A program made the position numbers and the translations under genes. A stretch of 32,035 nt of DNA from Flavobacteriales bacterium (GTDB lineage: Bacteria > Bacteroidota > Bacteroidia > UBA10329): positions 1-32,035 of the forward strand of contig JAIPBJ010000034.1 of the NCBI GenBank assembly GCA_021739625.1, in the 5' to 3' direction. The notes below the pieces were generated by a model that worked only from the letters and a program-made list of their open reading frames with translations, was not told where the DNA came from and did no database searches. The first letter of the stretch is position 1; every line of letters begins with the position of its first letter. Below, piece by piece: positions 1 through 18,341 of the stretch.

Positions 1-127
1 ACTGCATTACATGCTCCTTCCGGTCATCATACATGTTGCAGATGGAGCAAGTGCCTGCGTCATCAAATGTGAGCAGCGGATCGTCAGTGGAAGAAAGTAT
101 GCACCGGGTACAAGGTTGGACTGTCAT
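1..127 (-). CDS. N-acetyl sugar amidotransferase, WbpG/PseA-like (N-terminal part only)
   Basis: Only the first 42 codons lie in the window; the gene continues past base 1. The start reads MTVQPCTRCILSSTDD and is followed by a CSIC motif near residues 31-34, which gives the paired CxxC...CxxC pattern found at the N-terminus of WbpG/PseA-type amidotransferases. These enzymes use ammonia to turn an N-acetyl group of a nucleotide sugar into an acetamidino group during O-antigen, capsule or flagellin glycan synthesis. The ATG at 127 overlaps the TGA of the HisF-like gene in an ATGA junction, so the two are probably translationally coupled. The HisH and HisF partners that supply ammonia to this family lie directly upstream, which is strong context. 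The sugar substrate cannot be told from this fragment. Confidence 0.85.
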   Translation of the reverse strand, partial: MTVQPCTRCILSSTDDPLLTFDDAGTCSICNMYDDRKEHVMQ

Positions 128-873
128 ATTTCGACCGCTCTATCAGGATAGTTGATCAGCACCGCCCTCAGTTTTCCGTAATAAACGAACATGGATGAGG
201 CTGCAATTCCTTGAATGCCCATGTTCTTGGCGCGGACAAGGTCTTCTTGTCCAGAGGCACCGCCAAGCACTATTATCGGCACAGTCACATGGTGCATGAT
301 GGTCTCCACCGCCTCCAGATCATAGCCCTGATATGTGCCGTCATGATCTATGAGATGCACGAGAAGTTCGCCAGCACCCGAATCCACCGACTGGCGTGCT
401 GCCTGCTCTATGGTCAGTCCTGTGTCAATGGTCCCACTGTGGGTGTACACCCTGTATGCGCCTGTCTGCACATCCTTTCTCACATCCAGACTGACCACCA
501 CTGATGAGCAGCCAAGCTCCTTTGCCACCTCATTTACAAGTGTTGGGTTGGTGAAGGCCGCAGAATTCAGACTGACCTTTTCGTATCCATAGGAGATGAC
601 GTGCGCGCAGTCGGCCACACTGTTCAGGCCACCACCGTAACCCAATGGGAAGAATGCCTCTTCGGCCAGTTCCCGTAGCAATCTGTGAGGCACCGGTTCG
701 TGGTTCAAAGAGGATCTGAAGGCCATGACGAAAAGTTCGTTCACGCCTTTTTCGTTGAATATGTGCACTGCGTTCAGCGGGTCGCCCACATACGCAGGGT
801 CGGAGAAACGGACGGTCTTGTAAAGACCGTTGCCCATGATGCCCAAGACAGGTATGATGCGGCTCTCAAGCAT
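124..873 (-). CDS. hisF: HisF-like ammonia-channel subunit for acetamidino-sugar synthesis (HisF2/WbuZ type)
   Basis: A 249-residue TIM-barrel protein of the HisF family (RIIPVL near residue 5, YVGDP near 28-32, YGGG near 79, LGGA in the C-terminal half). In histidine biosynthesis HisF makes imidazole glycerol phosphate. This copy has Gly at position 11, where true HisF has a catalytic Asp, while Asp130 is kept (SLDVRKD); that fits the HisF2/WbuZ branch, which relays ammonia from HisH to a WbpG-type amidotransferase. Position 51, normally Asp in an LDI motif, is Ala (VMAF). The gene overlaps the end of the glycosyltransferase-HisH gene by 8 bases and the WbpG start by 4, so the three proteins are likely made together. 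A role in histidine synthesis is unlikely because no other his gene is present. Confidence 0.88.
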   Translation of the reverse strand: MLESRIIPVLGIMGNGLYKTVRFSDPAYVGDPLNAVHIFNEKGVNELFVMAFRSSLNHEPVPHRLLRELAEEAFFPLGYGGGLNSVADCAHVISYGYEKVSLNSAAFTNPTLVNEVAKELGCSSVVVSLDVRKDVQTGAYRVYTHSGTIDTGLTIEQAARQSVDSGAGELLVHLIDHDGTYQGYDLEAVETIMHHVTVPIIVLGGASGQEDLVRAKNMGIQGIAASSMFVYYGKLRAVLINYPDRAVEI

Positions 874-2827
874 CTTGCAATGAAGCTTTCGGTTCGGTGA
901 CGATCAGTTGTGTGAACAGCTCTTTACCAAAATGGTGACTTTTCTCCGGGTGGAACTGAAATCCCCACACGTTCCCCTGTCTCACTGCAGAAACAAACGG
1001 AACTCCGTAGTGCGAAGTAAGCAATACGGTCGAAGCATCGGTGGGCTTGGCATGAAACGAATGAGTGAAATAGAACCGCATTGGCTGCTTCCAGAAGGTA
1101 TTCGTCCCTTGGGGGCCGGCCTCTACCATGTTCCAGCCCATGTGAGGCACATTCAATGGCCGTCCAAGACCGTCCTTGGATGGGAAACGGACCACATTGC
1201 CTTTAATCAACCCAAGTCCATTGCTCGTACCTTCCTCACTGCGGTCAAAAAGCAGTTGCATGCCCAGACATATACCTATGAGCTGCCCACCACATACCAC
1301 ATAGCGATGTATCGCCTCGCTGAACCCAGCAGCATCAAGCCGCTTCATGCCTTCGTCAAAAGCACCCACCCCGGGCAGGATGATCGAGCTGTATCGACTG
1401 ATCAGTCTCGGGTCTGCAACTGCTTCCGAACGGATGCCGGCACTATGCAACATGTTCTGCACGGCTGCCACATTGCCCAGCCCGGTCTGAATAATGCCGA
1501 CCGTGGGTCTATCAGCATCACCACGTTTCATTATAGGGTCTTCAGCATCCTTGCCCGAAAGCAAGCGGGCAAACTTCTCATAATTGTCTGTGGCATTGAA
1601 GCAGGTCTCCTGAATGATCTTGGAAGATGCGCGCATGGCCACCACTTCATTCTCTTCCAACGCAAAGAACCTATCGATCAAGGCATGAACCCCTTCAGGG
1701 CTGTTGTCTTTGATGATGAACCCATTGCGGCCATCGATGACTATTTCGGGCACACCACCCACATTAGGGCCAATGATCGGTATGCCGAACGCGGCACATT
1801 CCATCATGGATACCGGTATGCCTTCGTAATGGCTCACATTTATCAGCACATCTGGGGCAACGACTTGAATGCGTTCCATCACTTCATGAAGAGGAAGAAA
1901 GCCATGGAAATGCACTTTAAGGTTTGGCATGCCATCAAGGAGTTCAGCGGCCATTTTTTTCACATCGCTCTCATAGGCAACATCACCTCCGGCCCCGACA
2001 TGATGCCACTCCAGCACTGGGCCTCTCCAAAGCGCCAACGCTCGTATCAGTGTTTCCAGATTCTTCACTGGCACAATGCCAGAGAGAGATAGGATTTTTT
2101 TTGGTGTGTTCCCTTGGAACGGAATGGGATTCTGTTCGGCAACGCCCAATCTGTGAAGCGCAAACCGATGTGAATAGCGTGGATATCGTTCCCACAGATA
2201 ACGCCTGCCATGCTCCGAGATGCAGCAGATACAGTTCGCGTGTTGAAAGATCTTATTGCGAAATGGGAGATAATTGAACGGATGCCGCTCTGCGTACAGG
2301 TCTGCGCCATGAACCCTTGTGTAGAAGAACTCGATGATCCCCTGTCTTTTCCACTCTGCCAGCATGTACGCCTCGCCAATGTTCCAATAGGTATACCAAA
2401 CATAGTTGGCTGGATCATCACCAATCGAATTCAATGTCGCGAGCAATTCCTGACCAACTCTATGGGCATGTTCCTTATAGGCAAGGGCGGTTTTGAAGGT
2501 CAGTAGATTAAGAGGCGAGCCAAGTATTCGCAGGTCACGCCTTGTCTCACTGAAGAGTGTGACGATGAACTGTCTAACAAGAATGTAGAGCTTACTTATG
2601 GTCGTAATCTCAGTATGTTTCAAAGTGAGTAATCTCACCCCTGTAGGTACCTCAAAAAGTGCTGGTTGATCACTGTGTTTAGTGATCAGTACGATCTCTT
2701 CAAAATGGCCCACAAGATGCTTCAGTTCCTCATGGAAGAACGGCTCGCCCATGCTGAAGGGATATCCCTCAAGCATCACAGCAAGCTTTCGGGGTCTTGT
2801 TGGGGCCGTATCGTTTCTCCGTAGCAT
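866..2827 (-). CDS. GT4 glycosyltransferase fused to a HisH-type glutamine amidotransferase
   Basis: A single 653-codon frame holds two domains. Residues about 1-430 are a GT-B glycosyltransferase of family GT4: donor-binding region with GGVPEI and an E-x7-E pair at Glu335/Glu343 (EGIPVSMME). Residues about 433-653 are a complete class I glutamine amidotransferase like HisH: ILPGVGAF oxyanion region, nucleophile Cys at about residue 520 (GICLGMQ), and the His/Glu pair in FQFHPEKS. HisH frees ammonia from glutamine for the HisF-like protein encoded next. Known HisH2/WbuY proteins stand alone, so the fusion is unusual. At the joint (about 1529-1533) a TAATG stop/start lies one frame off, suggesting two ancestral genes joined by a one-base shift, or a sequence error. 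ATG at 2827 is preferred; a TTG at 2836 is also in frame. Confidence 0.85.
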   Translation of the reverse strand: MLRRNDTAPTRPRKLAVMLEGYPFSMGEPFFHEELKHLVGHFEEIVLITKHSDQPALFEVPTGVRLLTLKHTEITTISKLYILVRQFIVTLFSETRRDLRILGSPLNLLTFKTALAYKEHAHRVGQELLATLNSIGDDPANYVWYTYWNIGEAYMLAEWKRQGIIEFFYTRVHGADLYAERHPFNYLPFRNKIFQHANCICCISEHGRRYLWERYPRYSHRFALHRLGVAEQNPIPFQGNTPKKILSLSGIVPVKNLETLIRALALWRGPVLEWHHVGAGGDVAYESDVKKMAAELLDGMPNLKVHFHGFLPLHEVMERIQVVAPDVLINVSHYEGIPVSMMECAAFGIPIIGPNVGGVPEIVIDGRNGFIIKDNSPEGVHALIDRFFALEENEVVAMRASSKIIQETCFNATDNYEKFARLLSGKDAEDPIMKRGDADRPTVGIIQTGLGNVAAVQNMLHSAGIRSEAVADPRLISRYSSIILPGVGAFDEGMKRLDAAGFSEAIHRYVVCGGQLIGICLGMQLLFDRSEEGTSNGLGLIKGNVVRFPSKDGLGRPLNVPHMGWNMVEAGPQGTNTFWKQPMRFYFTHSFHAKPTDASTVLLTSHYGVPFVSAVRQGNVWGFQFHPEKSHHFGKELFTQLIVTEPKASLQDA

Positions 2828-2846: not shown

Positions 2847-4004
2847 TCAGTGACCTATGCTTGAATACAGGTGGAACAGCCTATTCACATAGTTCTGAAT
2901 ATCGTATTTCGAAGCCAATGCTTTCGCACAGGAACTCATCTGTTTCCATGTCGGAACACTTGCGACCTGAGCTACATGTTCAGCAAAAATAGGTGCATCA
3001 GCTTCTGAGATGAGAAATCCATTTGCTCCATTTTCGATCAGACCCCTGTTTCCCTTGCCATCAAGTGCGACCACTGGGAGTCCGGCAGCCATGGCCTCCA
3101 ACAATACAAGGCCGAAGGGTTCGTAGGTGGCGCTGTGAACATAGATATGACTTGTCCACAACAGCTGTTCAATGTGATTGACATTGCCAGGGAAGTGAAC
3201 ATGCTCCGCAAGTCCCATCTCCAAGGACCTTTGAATCAATGCAGCCCTGAGCGGGCCATCACCAGCAAGTGTCAATGTCGCGTCAAGGCCATCGCGTCTT
3301 AAGATATCAAGCACATCAAGAAGAAAGCCCTGATTCTTTTTTTGAACGAAAGATCCAATGTTGATCAGTTTGATCTTCGTGCCGGCCTGCGGTTGGCATG
3401 CGGCATCTGCCGAGAACCGAAGGAAGTCAATCGCATTGGGAAGGAGTTGGATTTTCTTCGCAAGATTTTCGGGCAGGTTGTTCTTGAAAAATTGCTCCGT
3501 GTCAGCGCTGATGGCGATGAAATTGTTACCGCATCGGGCATACTGCCTTATCATGAATGCCCGCTCATAGGATTCTGTGATCCGTTTTCGACTTGCCGTT
3601 TCGTTCCACTGAAGTTTCTTGAACTGCGGCATGTTGTCGTGGCAATGGGTGAAATACCGCACTCCGTACTGAATGTTGAAGCGGGTCATCATCTCGGCTT
3701 CGAACAGATGGGAGTGGATCACATCCGGTCTGAAATCATGCAGGAAGGCGTTCCATTCTTCCAAATCGACCTGCCATTTTCCGAGAATGGAAGGCACAAC
3801 TTTCGAATTTACGGTCACAGGCCTAATATCAGGATATTCTTCGGCATAGTCATGGATGTTCCTCATGGTGACCAACGCCACCTCTACCTCCGGCAGACGG
3901 TCAAGGCTTCGCACCATGTCCAGACACAGACGTTCGGCACCGCCCTTGCTCAGCGAGGGTATGACATGCACAACACGCAGTTTCTTCAGCGGTTTTATCT
4001 GCAT
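2847..4004 (-). CDS. GT4-family glycosyltransferase
   Basis: A 385-residue GT-B glycosyltransferase. The N-terminal half begins RVVHVIPSLSKGGAERL, the usual opening of GT4 enzymes with the glycine-rich acceptor-side loop. The C-terminal half has NIGSFVQKKNQ, AGDGPLR and the E-x7-E donor-phosphate motif at Glu295/Glu303 (EPFGLVLLE). It would add one sugar from a nucleotide-sugar donor to a growing lipid-linked glycan at the cytoplasmic face of the inner membrane. It lies 19 bases upstream of the glycosyltransferase-HisH gene and 50 bases downstream of the GT2 gene, in one minus-strand run. No signal peptide or membrane segment is seen. Donor and acceptor cannot be assigned from sequence alone. 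Confidence 0.92.
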   Translation of the reverse strand: MQIKPLKKLRVVHVIPSLSKGGAERLCLDMVRSLDRLPEVEVALVTMRNIHDYAEEYPDIRPVTVNSKVVPSILGKWQVDLEEWNAFLHDFRPDVIHSHLFEAEMMTRFNIQYGVRYFTHCHDNMPQFKKLQWNETASRKRITESYERAFMIRQYARCGNNFIAISADTEQFFKNNLPENLAKKIQLLPNAIDFLRFSADAACQPQAGTKIKLINIGSFVQKKNQGFLLDVLDILRRDGLDATLTLAGDGPLRAALIQRSLEMGLAEHVHFPGNVNHIEQLLWTSHIYVHSATYEPFGLVLLEAMAAGLPVVALDGKGNRGLIENGANGFLISEADAPIFAEHVAQVASVPTWKQMSSCAKALASKYDIQNYVNRLFHLYSSIGH

Positions 4005-4054: not shown

Positions 4055-5005
4055 TCAATTTGCATTTCGCGATCTTGCTTTTCGGGCATTCCACCAAGTT
4101 CCGAATCCCGGGACCATCATTAGAATAAAGAAGCCCTTGGCCTTGGTGTGCATGTGATCAGGAGCGGTGAACAACGACCACATAACGGTTCCCAATGCCT
4201 TGAGACTGTCATTGTTCGCTGCATGATATTCGGCCATTCGGAACCGTACATCGCTCAGCAGATGTCTTTTCGTCCTACGGCTCAGGGCCGATGAGAAAGG
4301 GGTCCTGAAAAATTTCAGAAGGCCATCATGCCGTTTGAATGCTGCCGTGGTGGCACGGTTCACGGAGTTGCCGTCATGCACACGATACAGTATCATGCAT
4401 TCGGGCATGAGAATAACAGGATGCTTGGTTGCGATGCTGCACCAAAGCACGGAATCTTCCACCATCACAATGTCTGTACGGAACTGGAATTCTGTGAGAA
4501 TATCCTTGTGGATGCAGGCCCTTGACGGTGAGACAGGATGTGTGAAAAGCCATTCGGCCACATTGCCCGAAATGGCAGGTACAGCTACCGGTGTCGCTTC
4601 GGAACCATCCCAGATGCAGAAGCTCGAAATTATCAATGCCTTCGGGTCGCCATTGGATAAGATGAATGCGTTGAGGCGGTCAAGATATTGTTGCAGATAG
4701 CGGTCATCGCTGTCAAGGAAGCAGATGTACTGTCCTTTGGAATGGCGGATTCCGTTGTTCCTTGCCGCACTTCGTTCCGCGTTCGGCTGATGAACATATC
4801 TGATGCGTGGGTCATCGCACGCAATTTGCTTCACCACCTGCCGCGTGTGATCCGTGCTGCCGTCATCCACGATGATGCACTCCCAGTCTTCAAAAGACTG
4901 TGCCTGCACCGAAGCAATGGTCTCCTTCAGGAGTTCGGCCCGGTTATACGCTGGAATGACAATGGAGAATCGAGGGCTCAAGTGGCGATGGCGTGGCCCA
5001 AACAT
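4055..5005 (-). CDS. GT2-family glycosyltransferase
   Basis: A 316-residue GT-A glycosyltransferase of family 2. The nucleotide-binding start FSIVIPAYNR is followed by IIVDDGSTD and the metal-binding FLDSDD, all in the expected order within the first 110 residues. The frame stays open upstream to 5065, into the carbonic anhydrase gene, but the ATG at 5005 places the GT2 core 12 residues from the N-terminus, as in the family, and leaves a 19-base gap to the carbonic anhydrase stop, so it is chosen. The C-terminal half is of the loosely conserved type seen in capsule and O-antigen transferases, with no clear membrane helix. With its two GT4 neighbours it probably assembles a repeat unit carrying the acetamidino sugar. 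Confidence 0.9.
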   Translation of the reverse strand: MFGPRHRHLSPRFSIVIPAYNRAELLKETIASVQAQSFEDWECIIVDDGSTDHTRQVVKQIACDDPRIRYVHQPNAERSAARNNGIRHSKGQYICFLDSDDRYLQQYLDRLNAFILSNGDPKALIISSFCIWDGSEATPVAVPAISGNVAEWLFTHPVSPSRACIHKDILTEFQFRTDIVMVEDSVLWCSIATKHPVILMPECMILYRVHDGNSVNRATTAAFKRHDGLLKFFRTPFSSALSRRTKRHLLSDVRFRMAEYHAANNDSLKALGTVMWSLFTAPDHMHTKAKGFFILMMVPGFGTWWNARKARSRNAN

Positions 5006-5024
5006 ACGCAGAACGCAGCATTGC

Positions 5025-5687
5025 TTAGCCGAAATTGAGCTGATAGACCTTTGCGAGGTCGTCATCAGAATGTACGTTCACCCCTAGATCTTTGATGAGA
5101 CCTGTGCCCACGCCATAGACCCAACCATGCAGATTCAATTCTTGCCCTCGGTTCCAAGCGGCCTGCACTATGGAGGTCTTGGCAAGGTCGAGCACCTGTT
5201 CCTTCACATTGAGCTCCACAAATTTGTCGAAACGTTCTTCTTCGTCCGTTATGCTGTCCAGTTCTTTCTGGTGGAAACGATAGACGTCCTTCAGATGGCG
5301 GATCCAATTGTCGATCAGACCAATGGACCTGTTGCTCATTGCGGCCTGCACACCCCCGCAGCCATAGTGACCGCACACGATAACATGGCTCACCTTGAGC
5401 ACATTGACCGCATAGTCAAGCACGCTCAGCATGTTCATGTCGGTGTGGATCACCATATTGGCAATGTTCCGGTGAACGAACACTTCGCCTGGCTGTGCCC
5501 CGATGATCTCGTTGGCAGGAACCCGGCTGTCTGCACACCCGATCCACAGCACCGGTGGTTGCTGACCCCTTGCCAGTTTGGCGAAATACTCTCTGTCAAT
5601 GGCAAGTTTGTCCTCGACCCATTTCCGGTTGTTGTCAATCAGATCCTTATAGAAATCCTGTCCCATGTTGTTTGAACTCATGTTCAT
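5025..5687 (-). CDS. Beta-class carbonic anhydrase
   Basis: A 220-residue beta-carbonic anhydrase, which interconverts CO2 and bicarbonate in the cytoplasm using zinc. The zinc ligands and active-site dyad are all present: Cys51, Asp53 and Arg55 in CADSRV, then His107 and Cys110 in CGHYGCGG. Length and motif spacing match bacterial beta-carbonic anhydrases. The gene begins 12 bases after the end of the SulP transporter gene, so the two are probably co-transcribed. The pairing suggests that imported bicarbonate is balanced with CO2 for carboxylation or pH control. A second ATG two codons in (5681) is an equally possible start. It is followed 19 bases later by the GT2 gene; whether transcription runs on into the polysaccharide genes is unknown. 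Confidence 0.95.
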   Translation of the reverse strand: MNMSSNNMGQDFYKDLIDNNRKWVEDKLAIDREYFAKLARGQQPPVLWIGCADSRVPANEIIGAQPGEVFVHRNIANMVIHTDMNMLSVLDYAVNVLKVSHVIVCGHYGCGGVQAAMSNRSIGLIDNWIRHLKDVYRFHQKELDSITDEEERFDKFVELNVKEQVLDLAKTSIVQAAWNRGQELNLHGWVYGVGTGLIKDLGVNVHSDDDLAKVYQLNFG

Positions 5688-5699
5688 TTTATTGGTTAA

Positions 5700-7280
5700 T
5701 CATTGACCGGTCATGTATTCCGTGGATTCGATGCCTATGGTGCCTACGGTGATGTTGCGGGGCGGGGCCGTGTGTTTCTTGAAATTCTGAATGACCTCAA
5801 GCACATCATAGTTGATGCTCACACAGTTCGACCCGTCAACGACCACAATGGAATACTCTGGAAGACGCTCAAGTATCCTCTGAATACTTCCTTTGTTCAG
5901 GAAGGTCACTTCTTCGGAGAGGGTGAGAACCGTGACATCCTCGCCATTATCGTTCTGTTCAATATGCCGATGGTAACTGTGCTTGAGATTCTGGAGGAGA
6001 ATGAAATAGATGGCCACAGCCATTCCTAAACCGATACCTCTCAGCAGGTCTGTGAGCAGAATGGCCACCACTGTGACAATGAACGGGATGAACTGTTCGC
6101 GGCCCATGCCATACATGCCCTTGTAAAGTGAGAATTTTGAGAGTTTGTATCCGACCATGAGCAGGATGCTGGCCAAGGCCGCGAGCGGGATGTGGTTGAG
6201 CAGTGCAGGTATGAGTATGGCCGATGATAGGAGTAGGAATCCGTGAAAAATGGCTGATATCTTGGTCCTGCCACCTGAATTGATATTGGCAGAGCTGCGC
6301 ACGATCACCTGTGTGAGAGGCAGACCACCGATGAGGCCCGCTACCATATTGCCCACGCCTTGGGCCTTCAGTTCGCGGTCTGTGTCGGTGCTGCGCCTCT
6401 GCGGGTCGAGTTTGTCGGTCGCTTCCACTGACAATAGTGTTTCCAAGCTGGCGACAACGGCCAATGTCACCGCCACCACGTAAACGTCAGGATTGGTGAT
6501 GGCCGAAAAATCAGGCATCTTGAAGAAACTGATGAAATCACCGGGCGAGCCTGCCACGGGCAGTTGCACCAGATGTTTCCCTGTCATGTACAGATCCGGG
6601 GCAAACGCACTGAAGGCAAGGTTGAGCAATGTGCCAACAACGACAACGAAAAGTGCACCGGGCAGAAAACGGAACAGTGTGATGCGCTGCATGAAAGGGC
6701 GTTCGAACAGCAGCAGCAATGCCAAGGAAACAGCCGATATGATGATGGCACCAAGGCTGCTGTATCGGAATGCATTATAGATCTCCGTGAAGGTGTTCTG
6801 GCCATCACTCTGAACAAAATCGAGGTCTCCAATGAAATCCTCGTCATAGCCCAAGGCATGTGGGATCTCTTTCATGATGAGGATCAGACCTATGGCGGCC
6901 AACATTCCCTTGATCACTGATGAAGGGAAATAGTAGGCCACTACGCCAGCCTTGAGGAATCCAGCGGTGAACTGGAGCATGCCTGCCAGCACCACGGCCA
7001 AAAGGAATGCCTCGAAACTTCCCAGAGTCTCCAATGCCGTGAGCACGATGACCACCAGCCCTGCCGCAGGCCCTGACACTCCAAGTGCAGACCCGCTCAG
7101 TGCCGCCACAACGATGCCTCCTACAAAACCGGCAATGATGCCTGAGAACATCAGCCCGGGGTCGTTGGTCGAAGCAATGGCCACACCGAGGCACAGCGGC
7201 AGTGCCACCAGATAGACCACCAGACCTGCGGGCAGGTCATATTTCAAATGTTTGAAAAGGTCTTTGAAAGAGTTGGTCAT
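5700..7280 (-). CDS. SulP-family anion (probably bicarbonate) transporter with STAS domain
   Basis: A 526-residue membrane transporter. It starts MTNSFKDLFKHLKYDLPAG, then has many hydrophobic segments typical of the SulP fold, including the LVALPLCLGVAIAS and GLIGGLPLTQVIVRSSANINSG regions, and ends in a STAS domain (about residues 445-526). SulP proteins carry bicarbonate, sulfate or other anions. Pairing with a beta-carbonic anhydrase points to bicarbonate, as in BicA-like systems, but the substrate is inferred. The ATG at 7280 is chosen over one at 7328: the shorter form begins at the family's conserved N-terminus, and a Bacteroidota-type -7 element lies between the two, so the upstream ATG would probably not be transcribed. 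Confidence 0.92.
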   Translation of the reverse strand: MTNSFKDLFKHLKYDLPAGLVVYLVALPLCLGVAIASTNDPGLMFSGIIAGFVGGIVVAALSGSALGVSGPAAGLVVIVLTALETLGSFEAFLLAVVLAGMLQFTAGFLKAGVVAYYFPSSVIKGMLAAIGLILIMKEIPHALGYDEDFIGDLDFVQSDGQNTFTEIYNAFRYSSLGAIIISAVSLALLLLFERPFMQRITLFRFLPGALFVVVVGTLLNLAFSAFAPDLYMTGKHLVQLPVAGSPGDFISFFKMPDFSAITNPDVYVVAVTLAVVASLETLLSVEATDKLDPQRRSTDTDRELKAQGVGNMVAGLIGGLPLTQVIVRSSANINSGGRTKISAIFHGFLLLSSAILIPALLNHIPLAALASILLMVGYKLSKFSLYKGMYGMGREQFIPFIVTVVAILLTDLLRGIGLGMAVAIYFILLQNLKHSYHRHIEQNDNGEDVTVLTLSEEVTFLNKGSIQRILERLPEYSIVVVDGSNCVSINYDVLEVIQNFKKHTAPPRNITVGTIGIESTEYMTGQ

Positions 7281-7300
7281 GGGCTGTCTCTGGCGGGGCG

Positions 7301-7308
7301 CAAAGATC
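7301..7308 (-). promoter_or_regulatory. Predicted -7 promoter element of the SulP-carbonic anhydrase operon
   Basis: On the minus strand the sequence is GATCTTTG, seven of eight bases of the Bacteroidota consensus TAnnTTTG once the two free positions are counted. Its last base is 20 bases upstream of the ATG at 7280, the same spacing as in several other genes here. A TTTA about 23 bases further upstream is a weak -33 candidate. Confidence 0.4.
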
Positions 7309-7354
7309 GTAGGCTCCTCCCGCGGCATCCTTAAACATGCATTAGAACGTGCTC

Positions 7355-12548: not shown

Positions 12549-14630
12549 CTACAGCCCCAGTATCTTCCCAATATCCCAGATGCTCATGAAGAATGGGGAG
12601 AAGCGGTTGCGTTTGACCTGCTGCTCCTCGCGGTTCCAGAAATGGAGGTCGTGGACGGGCATCAGATAGCCATACTGATAGGAGGTGAAACTGTGCCTGC
12701 GCTGGAAGAGCCATTCCTTGTCATACCTGTACATCGATTCCTGCTCGCGCACCAGCGGAACGGTGGCAAGGCGGATGGCCGCTGCCTCGCTTAGCATTGC
12801 TTCCATCTGCTGCTCCTCTCCTTTTGAATGGGCCACCATGGCGCGCACGGTAAGCATCCGGTGCCTCGCCCTTTCGGTGGTCACCTGCAGGCCCAGCAGG
12901 TATTCGCGCAGCAACTGCTTTTGCAGCTCATCCGCCAAAGGCAGATGGATGGCGGCCAACCTTTCATTCAATGCCTTGCTCCGCGCAATGAACCGCTCGA
13001 ACTGCGGCAGATTCGTGTTCTCAATATTGTTGACGACCGAGTCGGTGGCCTCGTTGCGCAGCCATTTGAAGGTGTAATCGGGCCTTGGATGGAACTGCTT
13101 GCGGAACAGGGAGAGCTCATCAGTGATTGTCTGTGCGCATAGGAACTGGAGGAGGTTCTCCGCGATCAAGGACTGCTTTTGGAGTTCCAACTGGCTGCTG
13201 AGGATCTCATTCACATCGGCTCCAAGCCCGATCTCCTTCACCCAGTCGAGTGGGGCAGGGGCGACCTCTTTGCCGTTGACCGTCTTTTTCCAGCTCCAGC
13301 GGGCAATGCTCCAATCGACTGTCCAATAGCCCCATTCCCAGCCACTGCTGAAGGTGAGATGGTTGGGCACACCTTCGCGCTCGCAGAGGAGGATGTCGCT
13401 CAACCGCCCGCTGAGGTAGGGCATGAGCAGCATAGGCACCGAGTTGTCGTAGGTGATCCAGTAGGCCGATTCGGGGTAGAACCACACCTCGCGCACCGCG
13501 TTCTCCTTGCGCATGTCGCGGTGGATGTGGTGGAAGTTGTCGTTCTCATAGACAGGCGCGATGCTGTCCTCCAGGCTGTACATCATCACGGTGTGGATGC
13601 CCACGCCACGGTAGAGGTCGATGCTGTCCGATGCGCTGAACACGTCCGCCTGCACCCCTACCATGTTCTCCTCGCTCACCACGTGCTTGCGCCCCATGAT
13701 GTTGCAGCCATAGCGGTTGCGTGCCGTGGCGATAAGCGTTTTCTTCAAGCGGGTCTTCAGCTTGTCCTTGCCGCCCACGAACTCAGCCGTGTTGAACTCC
13801 ACGTTCATGAAATCCCAATCGGCATAGAACAGCCGGGCCATGTTGCGTTCCATCTGCGTCTCCTTGCTGCGCCAGCTTTTCGGCCAATTCTTGTAGAGCT
13901 GGTAGGTGCGCTGCTGGATCATGTGGAGCGAGAGGTCGATGCCGGCCATGATGCCGCGCTCGTGCGAATAATCGACCATGCGCTTGGCGTGGGGCTGCCA
14001 TTGCTTCATGTCGAGTGTGCGGAGGAGGCAGAACTCCCAGTAGTTCTGGCGGTTGCGGGCCAGCCAGTCGATGTATGCCTTCACGTCCGGCCATGCATTG
14101 GGACGGTCGGGGTTGTGCAGTTGTTCGGTCAGTTCCAGCGGGTGCTGCGTGTGGAGGTGGAAGCCCTTCTTGTTGAAACGGGGCAGGGAGGAATAGTCCA
14201 ACGTCCCGGGCCACCGCAACGAATCCGGATAAACAGTCTGACGGGCATGGATGAATTTGAATCCCAGCACGTGGTCCATCAGCCCATAAAGCCCGAAGGC
14301 GAGCCCGTGCATGGAGGGCCCGGTGGAGGTGTAATCGGGATAGCTGCCCGCCCATCGGTAGCCATGGTCGGGGTAATGCACCATGAACACGCTGTCGCGT
14401 AGGACGGTGCTGCCGAGCGGGATGGTGTCCACATCCTTGAGCACGAACCGGAGCGTGACCTTTTTCCAGTCCGACCGAGGGGTCAACAGCAGGGTGTCGG
14501 CATCCGAGATGGCATGGTTGAGGACGATGGCGTGGGGCGCATTGCCCTCAGGGGTGATGAAAGTGACCTGTGCCTGTGCCCAGACACTGATGCAGCAGAA
14601 AAGAAAAAGAAAGACGTTGAAACCTGCCAA
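12549..14630 (-). CDS. Large secreted protein of unknown family, possible TIM-barrel glycosidase relative
   Basis: A 693-residue protein with a hydrophobic N-terminus ending SVWAQAQ, a likely signal peptide cut near residue 20. Residues about 105-125 (GLAFGLYGLMDHVLGFKFI) resemble the small domain that precedes the barrel in families GH20 and GH67, and the following FHLHTQ...YIDWLARNRQNYWEF resembles the first strands and helices of such a barrel. No catalytic pair could be fixed, so a glycosidase role is only suggested. The only start after the methyltransferase stop is a TTG at 14630, three codons past that TGA and in the same frame; the resulting signal peptide lacks the usual Lys/Arg. The true start is therefore uncertain. 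The family is not one I recognise. Confidence 0.7.
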   Translation of the reverse strand: MAGFNVFLFLFCCISVWAQAQVTFITPEGNAPHAIVLNHAISDADTLLLTPRSDWKKVTLRFVLKDVDTIPLGSTVLRDSVFMVHYPDHGYRWAGSYPDYTSTGPSMHGLAFGLYGLMDHVLGFKFIHARQTVYPDSLRWPGTLDYSSLPRFNKKGFHLHTQHPLELTEQLHNPDRPNAWPDVKAYIDWLARNRQNYWEFCLLRTLDMKQWQPHAKRMVDYSHERGIMAGIDLSLHMIQQRTYQLYKNWPKSWRSKETQMERNMARLFYADWDFMNVEFNTAEFVGGKDKLKTRLKKTLIATARNRYGCNIMGRKHVVSEENMVGVQADVFSASDSIDLYRGVGIHTVMMYSLEDSIAPVYENDNFHHIHRDMRKENAVREVWFYPESAYWITYDNSVPMLLMPYLSGRLSDILLCEREGVPNHLTFSSGWEWGYWTVDWSIARWSWKKTVNGKEVAPAPLDWVKEIGLGADVNEILSSQLELQKQSLIAENLLQFLCAQTITDELSLFRKQFHPRPDYTFKWLRNEATDSVVNNIENTNLPQFERFIARSKALNERLAAIHLPLADELQKQLLREYLLGLQVTTERARHRMLTVRAMVAHSKGEEQQMEAMLSEAAAIRLATVPLVREQESMYRYDKEWLFQRRHSFTSYQYGYLMPVHDLHFWNREEQQVKRNRFSPFFMSIWDIGKILGL

Positions 14631-14639
14631 TTGAAGGAA

Positions 14640-15749
14640 TCAGAATTTTTCCATAAGGAACAGATACTCCAGATACTTGCCGTCACTGGTCACCCATTCA
14701 TTGGTCCACCGCATGTTGCCCATCACGTTCTTCTTGTAATCTATCTCGATGGCCTTGACGAGTTTCCCGCCTGAATTGAGGATGTCGTAAAGCTCCTCCT
14801 TGGTAGCACGACCACCTGAGCTGTATGAGAGCAGAATGTAGTTCGCATCCGTCTCATTGATGAGTCTTCGGATGGCCTGCATGGCGATGAAACTACCATT
14901 TTCGTCCTTTCTGAACTCCTCGAACACTGATGCGGCCACACTGTCACGCGAGTCCTCCCGTCTGTTGACCTTTCCGAACAGTTGCGGCCAGTCGTTGAGG
15001 ATTACCGATGTCCAGATGTGATAGTAGGAGTTGTAGCGCACACGGCTGGGCGGCATCTTCTCATTGTTCGAGCCATAGGGCGGGTCGAAGTAGGCTAGAT
15101 CGAAGCTGCGTCCTCTTACCGTATCGAAAATGTCGCCCCTTATCACCTCGTTCTCCTGTTCATTGATAAAGAGTTTGGGCACTTTCAGCCGCAGGTCGTT
15201 GTATGATCTTGGCGACCAGTCGGCCAGATAGGCCGCATAATGGCCGAGGGTGCTGTCCACCGAGTCCAATGCCAGTATAAGGCTTGTCAGTGCCACGCAG
15301 CGTTCCACCTCATCCAGATTCAGACGGTCGATCTCATCACGTATGGCATCGAGCCGCATGGTGTTCTTCAGTTGAAAAGGCCGTTTCGCCTCATTCCCGA
15401 TGCTTCCATAATGTTCGGAGAACCAGCCCTCGTAGCCTTTCAGGCCATTCAGATGGTCAATGAGTTCCTGATACGCTGCCGGTTTCCGCCTGTTGAGCAC
15501 GTATGCTTTGGCCAAGGTCTCAGACCAGACCGAAATGTCACTTGATGTGGTATTAAATCCCAGTTTGGCGAACGCCTGCGATACTCTTGTTGAACCACTG
15601 AACCCGTCCAGGATGTTGGTCACGGGCAATTCAGACAGGACATCAACGATGTAGGGCAGTATCTTGAGCTTGGAACCCGCATACTTGATACCCTCGGTAT
15701 GGGGGGTCGCCAGTCTTGTGTTTCCGAAGAGGTCGAGGGTCGTGTTCAT
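14640..15749 (-). CDS. DNA adenine methyltransferase, D12 class (modification subunit)
   Basis: A 369-residue DNA N6-adenine methyltransferase of the Dam/D12 class. Motif I for S-adenosylmethionine binding is at residues 48-54 (DGFSGST), and the catalytic DPPY is at 222-225 (YFDPPYGSNN), an order typical of the alpha group. The conserved segments SLILALD, LGHYAAYL and SYSSGGRA also fit this class. Its start overlaps the end of the restriction-enzyme gene by four bases (ATGA), so both are made from one message, with the nuclease first. It would protect the host's own sites. The recognition sequence cannot be read from the protein. Confidence 0.93.
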   Translation of the reverse strand: MNTTLDLFGNTRLATPHTEGIKYAGSKLKILPYIVDVLSELPVTNILDGFSGSTRVSQAFAKLGFNTTSSDISVWSETLAKAYVLNRRKPAAYQELIDHLNGLKGYEGWFSEHYGSIGNEAKRPFQLKNTMRLDAIRDEIDRLNLDEVERCVALTSLILALDSVDSTLGHYAAYLADWSPRSYNDLRLKVPKLFINEQENEVIRGDIFDTVRGRSFDLAYFDPPYGSNNEKMPPSRVRYNSYYHIWTSVILNDWPQLFGKVNRREDSRDSVAASVFEEFRKDENGSFIAMQAIRRLINETDANYILLSYSSGGRATKEELYDILNSGGKLVKAIEIDYKKNVMGNMRWTNEWVTSDGKYLEYLFLMEKF

Positions 15750-16609
15750 TGCTTCAACTTCAATCGGTCAATATCCTTCTGCAACAGGTAGTTGGCCTCT
15801 TCATGGCCTTTGGCTGTGGCATTGAGCGCGAGACTGAAAAGCTTGACCAATGCGTGGTTGTGCGAATAATCTATCCAACCGTTGGTGATGCTGTCGAAGT
15901 ATGGCAGGGCGTTCCGAGTGTGCGTCCAAAGCCCGCGTTGGAGCGCGTTGGCAGATGCCCCACCGTAGCGCACCTCACAGATGTAATTGTCCTGAGCATC
16001 GAGGAAGAGATAGATGGGGTGCTTTCTGCCTTTGCCCTGACTTCTTCCACTAAAACTCTCCCCTTTGCCGATGTAAATTATTCTCGCTGTCTGCGTCACG
16101 GCCTTCGCATGGTCGAAGATCATGATGTTGCACTGCTTCAATGCCTCATTGTAAATCAAAGGCATCACATTCACATTCAGAAAATCACCGAAGGCATCTG
16201 ACCCGAATATGGCCTTGATCTGCTTCCTGTCTGTGATGTCTTTTCCCTGCGATTCCAGATAGGGGAACATCTTCTGGTCGCTGTCTGTGGAGAGTTGCAA
16301 TGGCCCGTCACCGTAGGCTTTCAGGCTAACAGGGAACTGCGCCTTGCTCAGTTCGTTGATGATGACGATGTCCTCCTCCCGTTCCTTGGCCCTGAAAAGG
16401 TCCTTGCCCACATGGATGCTCTTGAAGTCATACATGAACTGATTGATGAACTCGGCAATTCCTATCTCGGCCAGATCACCGTGCGTCTTGTTGCCTATGA
16501 GCCGCATGGTGAAGATGTTGCTCAAGGTGTTCACCACCAGATGACGCTCCTTGCTCACCAGCAGTTTGAACCGCTGCTTAAAATCATCGTAGGGATTGAG
16601 GTTTGCCAT
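15746..16609 (-). CDS. Putative type II restriction endonuclease
   Basis: A 287-residue protein encoded just upstream of, and overlapping by 4 bases, a D12 adenine methyltransferase; this place is the main evidence for the call. I do not recognise the family. A plausible PD-(D/E)xK core can be drawn: Glu48 in a helix (THGDLAEIGIAEF), Asp80 at the end of an acidic stretch (EREED), then a hydrophobic strand and Ser95-Leu96-Lys97 (FPVSLKAYG). A Ser in place of the usual Asp/Glu before Lys is known in the Cfr10I/NgoMIV group, where a helix Glu takes over; the same swap is guessed here. ATG 16609 has a perfect -7 promoter element 39 bases upstream. Confidence 0.7.
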   Translation of the reverse strand: MANLNPYDDFKQRFKLLVSKERHLVVNTLSNIFTMRLIGNKTHGDLAEIGIAEFINQFMYDFKSIHVGKDLFRAKEREEDIVIINELSKAQFPVSLKAYGDGPLQLSTDSDQKMFPYLESQGKDITDRKQIKAIFGSDAFGDFLNVNVMPLIYNEALKQCNIMIFDHAKAVTQTARIIYIGKGESFSGRSQGKGRKHPIYLFLDAQDNYICEVRYGGASANALQRGLWTHTRNALPYFDSITNGWIDYSHNHALVKLFSLALNATAKGHEEANYLLQKDIDRLKLKQ

Positions 16610-16648
16610 GCGGGTACTGTGCGGTTGAGGTTATGGAGGAGCAGACCT

Positions 16649-16656
16649 CAAACATA
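16649..16656 (-). promoter_or_regulatory. Predicted -7 promoter element of the restriction-modification operon
   Basis: Minus-strand TATGTTTG is a perfect TAnnTTTG, 39 bases upstream of the endonuclease ATG. A TTTG at 16685-16682 lies 25 bases further upstream, somewhat beyond the usual 19-21. Confidence 0.5.
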
Positions 16657-16782
16657 GTTATTGTTGCGCCCTCGCCCAGTTCAAATTTGATACATGACCA
16701 CTCATCTCTGAACGAATTGGATTCGGATGGAATGCACTTTTGACCTATTTCAGATGCCTGACCGCCCCAACTTGTCTTTCCG

Positions 16783-16790
16783 CAACTTTG
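16783..16790 (+). promoter_or_regulatory. Possible -7 promoter element of the OstA-like gene
   Basis: CAACTTTG differs from TAnnTTTG at the first base and ends 21 bases before the ATG at 16812. No -33 element is apparent, so this rests on the -7 match and the recurring spacing. Confidence 0.3.
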
Positions 16791-16811
16791 CACGCCTGTT
16801 ATCATCCGCTG

Positions 16812-18341
16812 ATGTCGCTGTTCCGTGCCATGCTCTTGACGCTCGTTGCCATTCAGGCTGCAACATGCGTGGCATACGCGCAGGAGGCTGCCAAGAAGAA
16901 GCGAAGGATAGAGCTGCGCCATGCCGATGTGTTGGAGTATGATGAGTCGCTGGGGCAAAAGGCAAGGAGACTGCTGGGCAACGTGGCCTTTGAGCACGAG
17001 GGCGCGCTGATGTATTGCGACAGCGCCTATCTCTATGAGAACAACAGTCTCGATGCGTTCTCGAATGTGCGCATCAACAAGGGCGACAGCATCAAGCTGT
17101 TCTGCAAGAAATTGAACTACAACGGTGATATTGAACTGGCCAAGGCACGTGAGGCGGTGCGGATGGAAGACCGCAAGATGACCGTCATCAGCGAGGCGTT
17201 GGACTACGATATGGCCAAGGACCAGGCATGGTATCTCGACAATGGCACAGTGCTGAGTGCCGAGAACACGCTTACCAGTCGCATCGGCTATTACTTCAGC
17301 AAAATGGAGGAGGCCTTCTTCAAGGATGATGTGAAACTGGTGAACAGCCGATACACGCTGTGGGCCGACACGCTGCGCTACAACGCCCGCACCGAGGTGG
17401 CGTTCTTCCTCGGCCCCACCCGCATCGTGAGCAAGGAGAACACGGTGCTCTGCACGCGGGGCTGGTATGATACCGAGCGCGACATCTCTCAGTTCAGCCA
17501 TCGGCCCACCATGCTCAGCAAGGATCAGAGCATCACGGGCGACAGCATCTATTTCAACAAGAATTACGGTTTTGGCAAGGCCATCGGCAACGTGGAGGTG
17601 GCAGACACTTCGGAGAAGGTGCTGCTTACCGGAAGACTCGCCAAGTATTTCGAGAAAGGTTCCATGGTGCTGATGACCGACAGCGCGCTGATGGTGCAGG
17701 ACATGGGCGGTGATTCGCTGTACCTGCATGGCGACACGTTGCTGAGCATTGTGGACACGCTCTTGGACAGGCGCATCCTGTTCGCATTCCACCGCACCAA
17801 ATTCTTCAAGAGCGACATGCAAGGCAAGTGCGATTCGCTGGTCTATTCCTACGTGGACAGCACCATCCGCCTCTATGACGACCCTATCATCTGGAGCGAT
17901 GAGAATCAGCTCACATCAGACAGCACTTGGATTCAGATGCGCAATGGCAGGGCCGATAAGCTCTATATGAAACGCAACGCCATCATCATTTCTGAGGAGG
18001 ACTCTGTGCTGCGCTACTACAACCAGATCAAAGGCCGGGAGATGGTAGGCCATTTCAAGGACGGACGACTTCATCGTGTGGATGCCGAGGGCGATGCGGA
18101 GACCATCTATTTCGGCAGCGAGGAGGGCACCGAGGCCGAGAATGTGAACCGCGCCAAGAGCAGCAGACTCTATATCATCATCGAGTCGCAGAAGGTGAAG
18201 CAGATCACCTTCCTCAGTCAGCCCGATGCCACGCTCTTCCCCATCAAAGAGGTGAAGGCCGATGAGATGCGGTTGGAGGGTTTCCGTTGGCGCATAGCCG
18301 AAAGGCCGATGAAGGTGCCTGACATCTTCGTCTGGGAGTGA
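16812..18341 (+). CDS. OstA-like protein (LPS-transport periplasmic domain family)
   Basis: A 509-residue exported protein. The ATG at 16812 starts a signal peptide (MSLFRAMLLTLVAIQAA, cut near AYAQE). An ATG at 16740 is also in frame but places extra residues before the signal peptide and lies upstream of the possible promoter. The mature part has the repeating short beta-strand pattern of OstA/LptA proteins, with recurring phrases such as NVAFEHEGALMYCDSA, LNYNGD and GNVEVADTSEKVLLTG. In Gram-negative bacteria this fold bridges lipopolysaccharide across the periplasm; large OstA-like proteins are common in Bacteroidota, but their exact task is not settled. It is convergent with the cation transporter gene, with six bases between the stops. 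Confidence 0.88.
   Translation: MSLFRAMLLTLVAIQAATCVAYAQEAAKKKRRIELRHADVLEYDESLGQKARRLLGNVAFEHEGALMYCDSAYLYENNSLDAFSNVRINKGDSIKLFCKKLNYNGDIELAKAREAVRMEDRKMTVISEALDYDMAKDQAWYLDNGTVLSAENTLTSRIGYYFSKMEEAFFKDDVKLVNSRYTLWADTLRYNARTEVAFFLGPTRIVSKENTVLCTRGWYDTERDISQFSHRPTMLSKDQSITGDSIYFNKNYGFGKAIGNVEVADTSEKVLLTGRLAKYFEKGSMVLMTDSALMVQDMGGDSLYLHGDTLLSIVDTLLDRRILFAFHRTKFFKSDMQGKCDSLVYSYVDSTIRLYDDPIIWSDENQLTSDSTWIQMRNGRADKLYMKRNAIIISEEDSVLRYYNQIKGREMVGHFKDGRLHRVDAEGDAETIYFGSEEGTEAENVNRAKSSRLYIIIESQKVKQITFLSQPDATLFPIKEVKADEMRLEGFRWRIAERPMKVPDIFVWE

Follow-up and report, generated by a model that had tools for sequence, protein, structure and literature searches.

The window analysed here, a stretch of 32,035 nucleotides that is the entire contig C37 of a draft genome (G000), encodes a true fusion protein in which a GT4 glycosyltransferase and a HisH2-type glutaminase are joined in one chain, with the catalytic residues of both domains intact. 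Acetamidino sugars decorate O-antigens and flagella. The coordination of the acetamidino modification with glycan assembly is little known, which is why fusions of this kind matter. Judging from the sequences compared below, the protein is probably a bifunctional enzyme of an acetamidino-sugar surface glycan, in which the covalent link tethers the GT4 in the amidination complex. In the best reading of these comparisons, glycosyltransferases have been joined recurrently to the HisH2-HisF2-WbuX machinery, similar joins having arisen elsewhere.

Domain architecture of the fusion

The fusion gene occupies a minus-strand frame (2836-866) that is stop-free throughout and ends at a TGA (866), giving 656 aa from a TTG at 2836 or 653 aa from the ATG at 2827 (table 1). 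An earlier sequence-only reading had proposed that a single open frame joins a GT4 enzyme to a HisH-type amidotransferase with its residues intact, and the stop-free frame, the Pfam and TIGR01855 matches and the motif positions bear this out. On the transferase side, Glycos_transf_1 matches residues 243-395 (E 4.6e-22, Pfam) and the E-x7-E pair is present (Glu338/Glu346); no curated glycosyltransferase subfamily reached its cut-off for this domain. On the glutaminase side, the HisH family TIGR01855 matches residues 446-645 with 193.9 bits (cut-off 105.4), covering profile positions 1-196 of 198, and the triad is kept as Cys523 (1268-1270), His629 (950-952) and Glu631 (944-946). When solved structures (PDB) were searched with the fusion, the HisH domain was matched (1kxj/1gpw, E 2e-30) and the glycosyltransferase part was weakly matched. 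In the plasmid and phage collections, no record covered 80% of the fusion query.

Table 1. Positions of the fusion gene, its parts and its operon neighbours in the window.
Feature	Coordinates	Strand	Basis or remark
GT2 glycosyltransferase	4055..5065	-	relatives with GT4-HisH-GT4 genes have a similar GT2 in front of them
Second GT4 glycosyltransferase of the operon	2847..4004	-	Pfam, NCBIfam
GT4::HisH2 fusion gene	866..2827	-	frame and family matches; TTG start at 2836 possible
GT4 glycosyltransferase domain	1550..2827	-	residues ~4-429; Pfam PF00534, E 4.6e-22; Glu338/Glu346
Interdomain linker	1502..1549	-	residues ~430-445; alignment and joint codons
TAATG	1529..1533	-	ATG in frame (Met436), TAA one base out of frame
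HisH2 class-I glutaminase domain	869..1501	-	TIGR01855; Cys523, His629, Glu631; solved HisH structures
HisF2-type (AglZ/HisF2) synthase subunit	124..873	-	NF038364; forms a clade only with HisF2 proteins of fused loci (100)
N-acetyl sugar amidotransferase (WbuX/WbpG/PseA family), 5' part	1..127	-	tetracysteine CTRC...GTCSIC

Operon and genomic context

The operon runs in the order GT2, GT4, GT4::HisH2, HisF2 and WbuX. The HisF2 start overlaps the end of the fusion gene by 8 nt, and the WbuX start at 127 overlaps the HisF2 gene as ATGA. The best family for HisF2 is NF038364, at 282.9 bits (under the equivalog cut-off of 310). The WbuX gene is split by the contig break, its remainder beginning contig C132; since 58 nt at the ends of the two contigs are identical (window 1-58, L077 1-58), we take C37 and C132 to join within this gene. 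Its C132 part scores 260.9 bits against TIGR03573 (cut-off 203.2), and SGGxDS and CxxC-xn-[GN]xCxxC, the family marks of the amidotransferase (PMC10607449), are both present.

The histidine-pathway HisH of this genome is a separate 194-aa gene that follows hisB on contig C89. The fused copy, which lies outside the histidine operon, is therefore the HisH2 paralogue. The separate hisB-hisH pair also rules out the fused HisH as a replacement for the histidine enzyme.

Elsewhere in the window, a carbonic anhydrase gene adjoins a SulP-type transporter gene (5025-7328), and the two are likely a bicarbonate uptake pair. At 14640-16609, PADLOC matched a type II methyltransferase with 487.6 bits and, next to it, a type II restriction enzyme with 380.3 bits, which together form a restriction-modification pair; the frames that flank the pair (12549-14630 and 16584-17822) had no PADLOC or Pfam match.

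The same fusion in a second family

Relatives were sought in a sample of the class with the full-length fusion as query, and other phyla were sampled by one scan of genome contigs. The same architecture, which the sequence-only reading had proposed to look for in related genomes, was found in another family of the class (f28): in five genomes of genus g28, GT4 and HisH lie in one stop-free frame with 40-43% identity to the fusion from residues 10-15 to residues 643-651. Two of these proteins have the two-domain form (G273 and G250, 664-aa frames) and three have a GT4-HisH-GT4 form in frames of 1,080-1,118 aa (G110, G295 and G035). A sixth g28 case (G357) is cut by the contig end before the HisH start. 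The catalytic motifs are intact in all fused copies, and HisF2 and then WbuX follow the fusion in all five g28 loci. The three-domain proteins, of about 1,070-1,115 aa (L062:7896-11084, L063:7613-10804 and L050:8689-11895), carry E-x7-E in both of their GT4 domains.

Phylogenies of the parts agree with the shared architecture. The fused GT4s, including that of the window, form one clade (support 100/100), and the window HisH is sister to the HisH of the two-domain g28 proteins (97/94; 97/99 in a wider tree). A single clade for the HisH domains of all six GT4::HisH2 proteins is not rejected (p-AU 0.68). In the trees of HisF2 (100) and WbuX (98), the genes of the window and of the other fused loci group to the exclusion of all others, and the module therefore has one history. 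Taken together, the shared fusion, the HisH sister grouping and the HisF2 and WbuX clades indicate that the fusion predates a lineage split or a transfer.

When 395 genomes of the class were searched with HisH alone, 113 HisH2-like places were found, ~105 of them in frames of 197-276 aa; in this sample HisH2 is thus usually free-standing, as had been stated at the outset. The other eight lie in frames of more than 600 aa, six being GT4::HisH2 and two (G122 and G181) a different protein described below. Members of the window's GT4 family also occur unfused. In more distant families, a GT4 is a close or overlapping separate neighbour of HisH2 (G049 and G080), and in G056 and G078 it closely adjoins or overlaps WbuX. 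A genome of the window's own genus (G006) has a near GT4 that stands alone: no HisH was found behind it in the 363 nt left on the contig, the frame that follows being methyltransferase-like and on the opposite strand, and an unfused HisH2-HisF2-WbuX set lies at another locus of the same genome. No acetamidino genes were found in the stretch read around this near GT4 or around distant GT4 homologues (G003-G005, G007 and G008). The GT4 family is therefore general rather than specific to the pathway, which counts against the reading of the fusion proposed below.

The joint between the domains

The joint carries a TAATG at 1533-1529 just as the sequence-only reading had described it, with the ATG in the fused frame and the TAA one base off. 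From this motif, the same reading had drawn three possible accounts of the architecture: a recent frameshift, an assembly error of one base, or internal initiation at the ATG. The motif alone is weak evidence, because stop/start signatures are common at internal ATGs of this window. That is, among 187 in-frame internal ATGs of the window's minus-strand genes, four have TA before them and up to 70 show an out-of-frame TAATG, TGATG or ATGA signature. In the g28 relatives the linker is short and of similar length, its sequence is variable and differs between lineages, and the start codon is not conserved. The TAATG is best read as chance or as a relic.

A recent one-base frameshift or assembly error, which would have joined separate genes in this genome only, is highly improbable. 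The out-of-frame TAATG would fit it, as would the nearness of a contig end in a draft genome of 179 contigs, but five other assemblies carry the same fusion, ~40-43% identical over the full length, and the partner genes beside it belong to one lineage with the window's. Moreover, homologous residues run to ~429 and resume from 446, which leaves ~45 nt for a shift, and no homopolymer longer than 3 occurs in those ~45 nt. The pattern named at the outset as telling against a standing fusion, in which close relatives would have GT4 and HisH as two genes overlapping at a TAATG, was not seen for this GT4-HisH pair. The fusions conserved in relatives rule out a frameshift or an assembly error as the source of the architecture.

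Internal initiation at the ATG at 1531, by which a free HisH2 would be made beside the fusion, is also quite improbable, if less so. An in-frame ATG does stand at the joint behind an out-of-frame TAA; however, a comparison of joint codons showed that all five g28 fusions lack an ATG there, which speaks against internal initiation as a conserved feature, and no clear Shine-Dalgarno sequence lies upstream of the window's ATG (GAAGACCCTATA). Bacteroidota rely little on such sites.

Other glycosyltransferases joined to the machinery

Fusions to a second part of the machinery were found in the window's own GT4 family. Five GT4::WbuX proteins of 797-818 aa, with both motif sets intact, occur in family f4 (G093, G011 and G057) and in genus g112 of f28 (G172 and G376). 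Their loci are L014:364-2781, L019:382-2781, L022:1489-3879, L065:364-2817 and L066:400-2811.

In the remaining two long HisH2 frames (G122 and G181, family f45), HisH2 is fused to a different N-terminal protein of ~445 aa, which is glycosyltransferase-like. Two of six homologues of this protein are weakly similar to the BFO_1060 family of glycosyltransferases; the protein itself had no Pfam match and nothing convincing among solved structures (PDB). Both f45 fusion genes (L084:6688-8691 and L085:6782-8791) adjoin a gene for a NeuB-like synthase. In two further genomes of the same genus (G152 and G235) the protein has a gene of its own, whose TGA shares an ATGA with the HisH2 start codon. A glycosyltransferase-like protein and HisH2 are likewise separate, with an ATGA overlap, in G291 (f52), and G068 has a longer overlap. 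That the eight HisH fusions arose only once is not rejected by the tree alone (p-AU 0.124); we hold the f45 fusion to be independent because its N-terminal domain is unrelated and its sister genomes are unfused.

Proposed function

In the function that we propose, the C-terminal HisH2 domain would hydrolyse glutamine while docked on HisF2, the product of the next gene, by analogy with imidazole glycerol phosphate (IGP) synthase. The ammonia would then be handed via HisF2 to WbuX, which is expected to convert an N-acetyl group of the sugar into an acetamidino group, and the N-terminal GT4 would add this modified sugar, or the one next to it, to the lipid-linked glycan as it grows. Being covalent, the link could keep the transferase in the amidination complex and fix a 1:1 stoichiometry, and it may confine the use of glutamine to where the modified sugar is made, transferred or consumed. 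A working complex of transferase and amidination enzymes seems the best explanation because glycosyltransferases are repeatedly joined to the glutaminase or to the amidotransferase. The earlier suggestion that the fusion ties ammonia release to the transferase is a reasonable reading; the recent frameshift offered as its cause is not supported.

In the main rival, the fusion, though real and functional, would bring only co-expression of genes that were already translationally coupled, the domains acting as if free, with no channelling or tethering. Unfused pairs with a stop/start overlap are indeed common (e.g. G152, G235 and G291), the linkers are short, variable and lineage-specific, and most HisH2 (~105/113) are free-standing. 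Yet the fusion has been kept over a large divergence and extended to a three-domain form, and at least three combinations of a machinery gene and a glycosyltransferase exist (GT4::HisH2, GT4::WbuX and the other GT-like::HisH2). On balance, we regard co-expression alone as unlikely, though well ahead of the accounts built on the TAATG, and prefer the tethered, bifunctional protein.

A broader proposal can be put forward tentatively. Amidination may take place in a physical complex with a glycosyltransferase, and its substrate might be the lipid-linked glycan, or the sugar at the moment of transfer, rather than the free sugar nucleotide; this complex may have been made covalent repeatedly, as GT4::HisH2, GT4::HisH2::GT4, GT4::WbuX and the second GT-like::HisH2. 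That glycosyltransferases are naturally fused to two distinct parts of the machinery points to a complex that includes the transferase, and names a probable transferase of the modified sugar. As single-chain proteins, the fusions also lend themselves to testing the substrate, the order of steps and the transfer of ammonia.

Comparison with known systems

HisH2 and HisF2 have been noted in Bacteroidota away from the histidine operon (PMC8305728), and WbuX, HisF2 and HisH are separate genes in a Sphingomonas polysaccharide locus (PMC11340318). Surprisingly little is known of the structural and functional properties of the amidotransferase, according to a crystal-structure paper (PMC10607449). 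The open-access literature gave no description of a GT::HisH or GT::WbuX fusion (subscription journals and sequence-database annotations were outside the search).

The locus resembles the HisH2/HisF2/WbpG (WbuY/WbuZ/WbuX) system in that a HisH2 domain, HisF2 and WbuX are encoded together and in this order among glycosyltransferases; its WbuX has the SGGxDS and tetracysteine motifs. In those systems as described, HisH2 is free-standing, whereas here a glycosyltransferase carries it as its C-terminal half. As in GT4 glycosyltransferases of bacterial polysaccharide loci, the Glycos_transf_1 domain has E-x7-E and sits in an operon with other glycosyltransferases; unlike them, it carries a glutaminase domain; in relatives, WbuX or a second GT4 is attached. 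With IGP synthase (HisH-HisF), the protein shares a class-I glutaminase that has an (alpha/beta)8 HisF partner, but the pathway is another one and the GT4 stands N-terminal to HisH instead of HisH being fused to HisF. Covalent joining has a precedent in the fused HIS7/HisHF of eukaryotes and a few prokaryotes, and HisHF fusions have been described (PMC8305728, PMC11237513). The fused HisH2 thus departs from the usual form of a free-standing subunit, and its membership of the enzyme family is unaffected.
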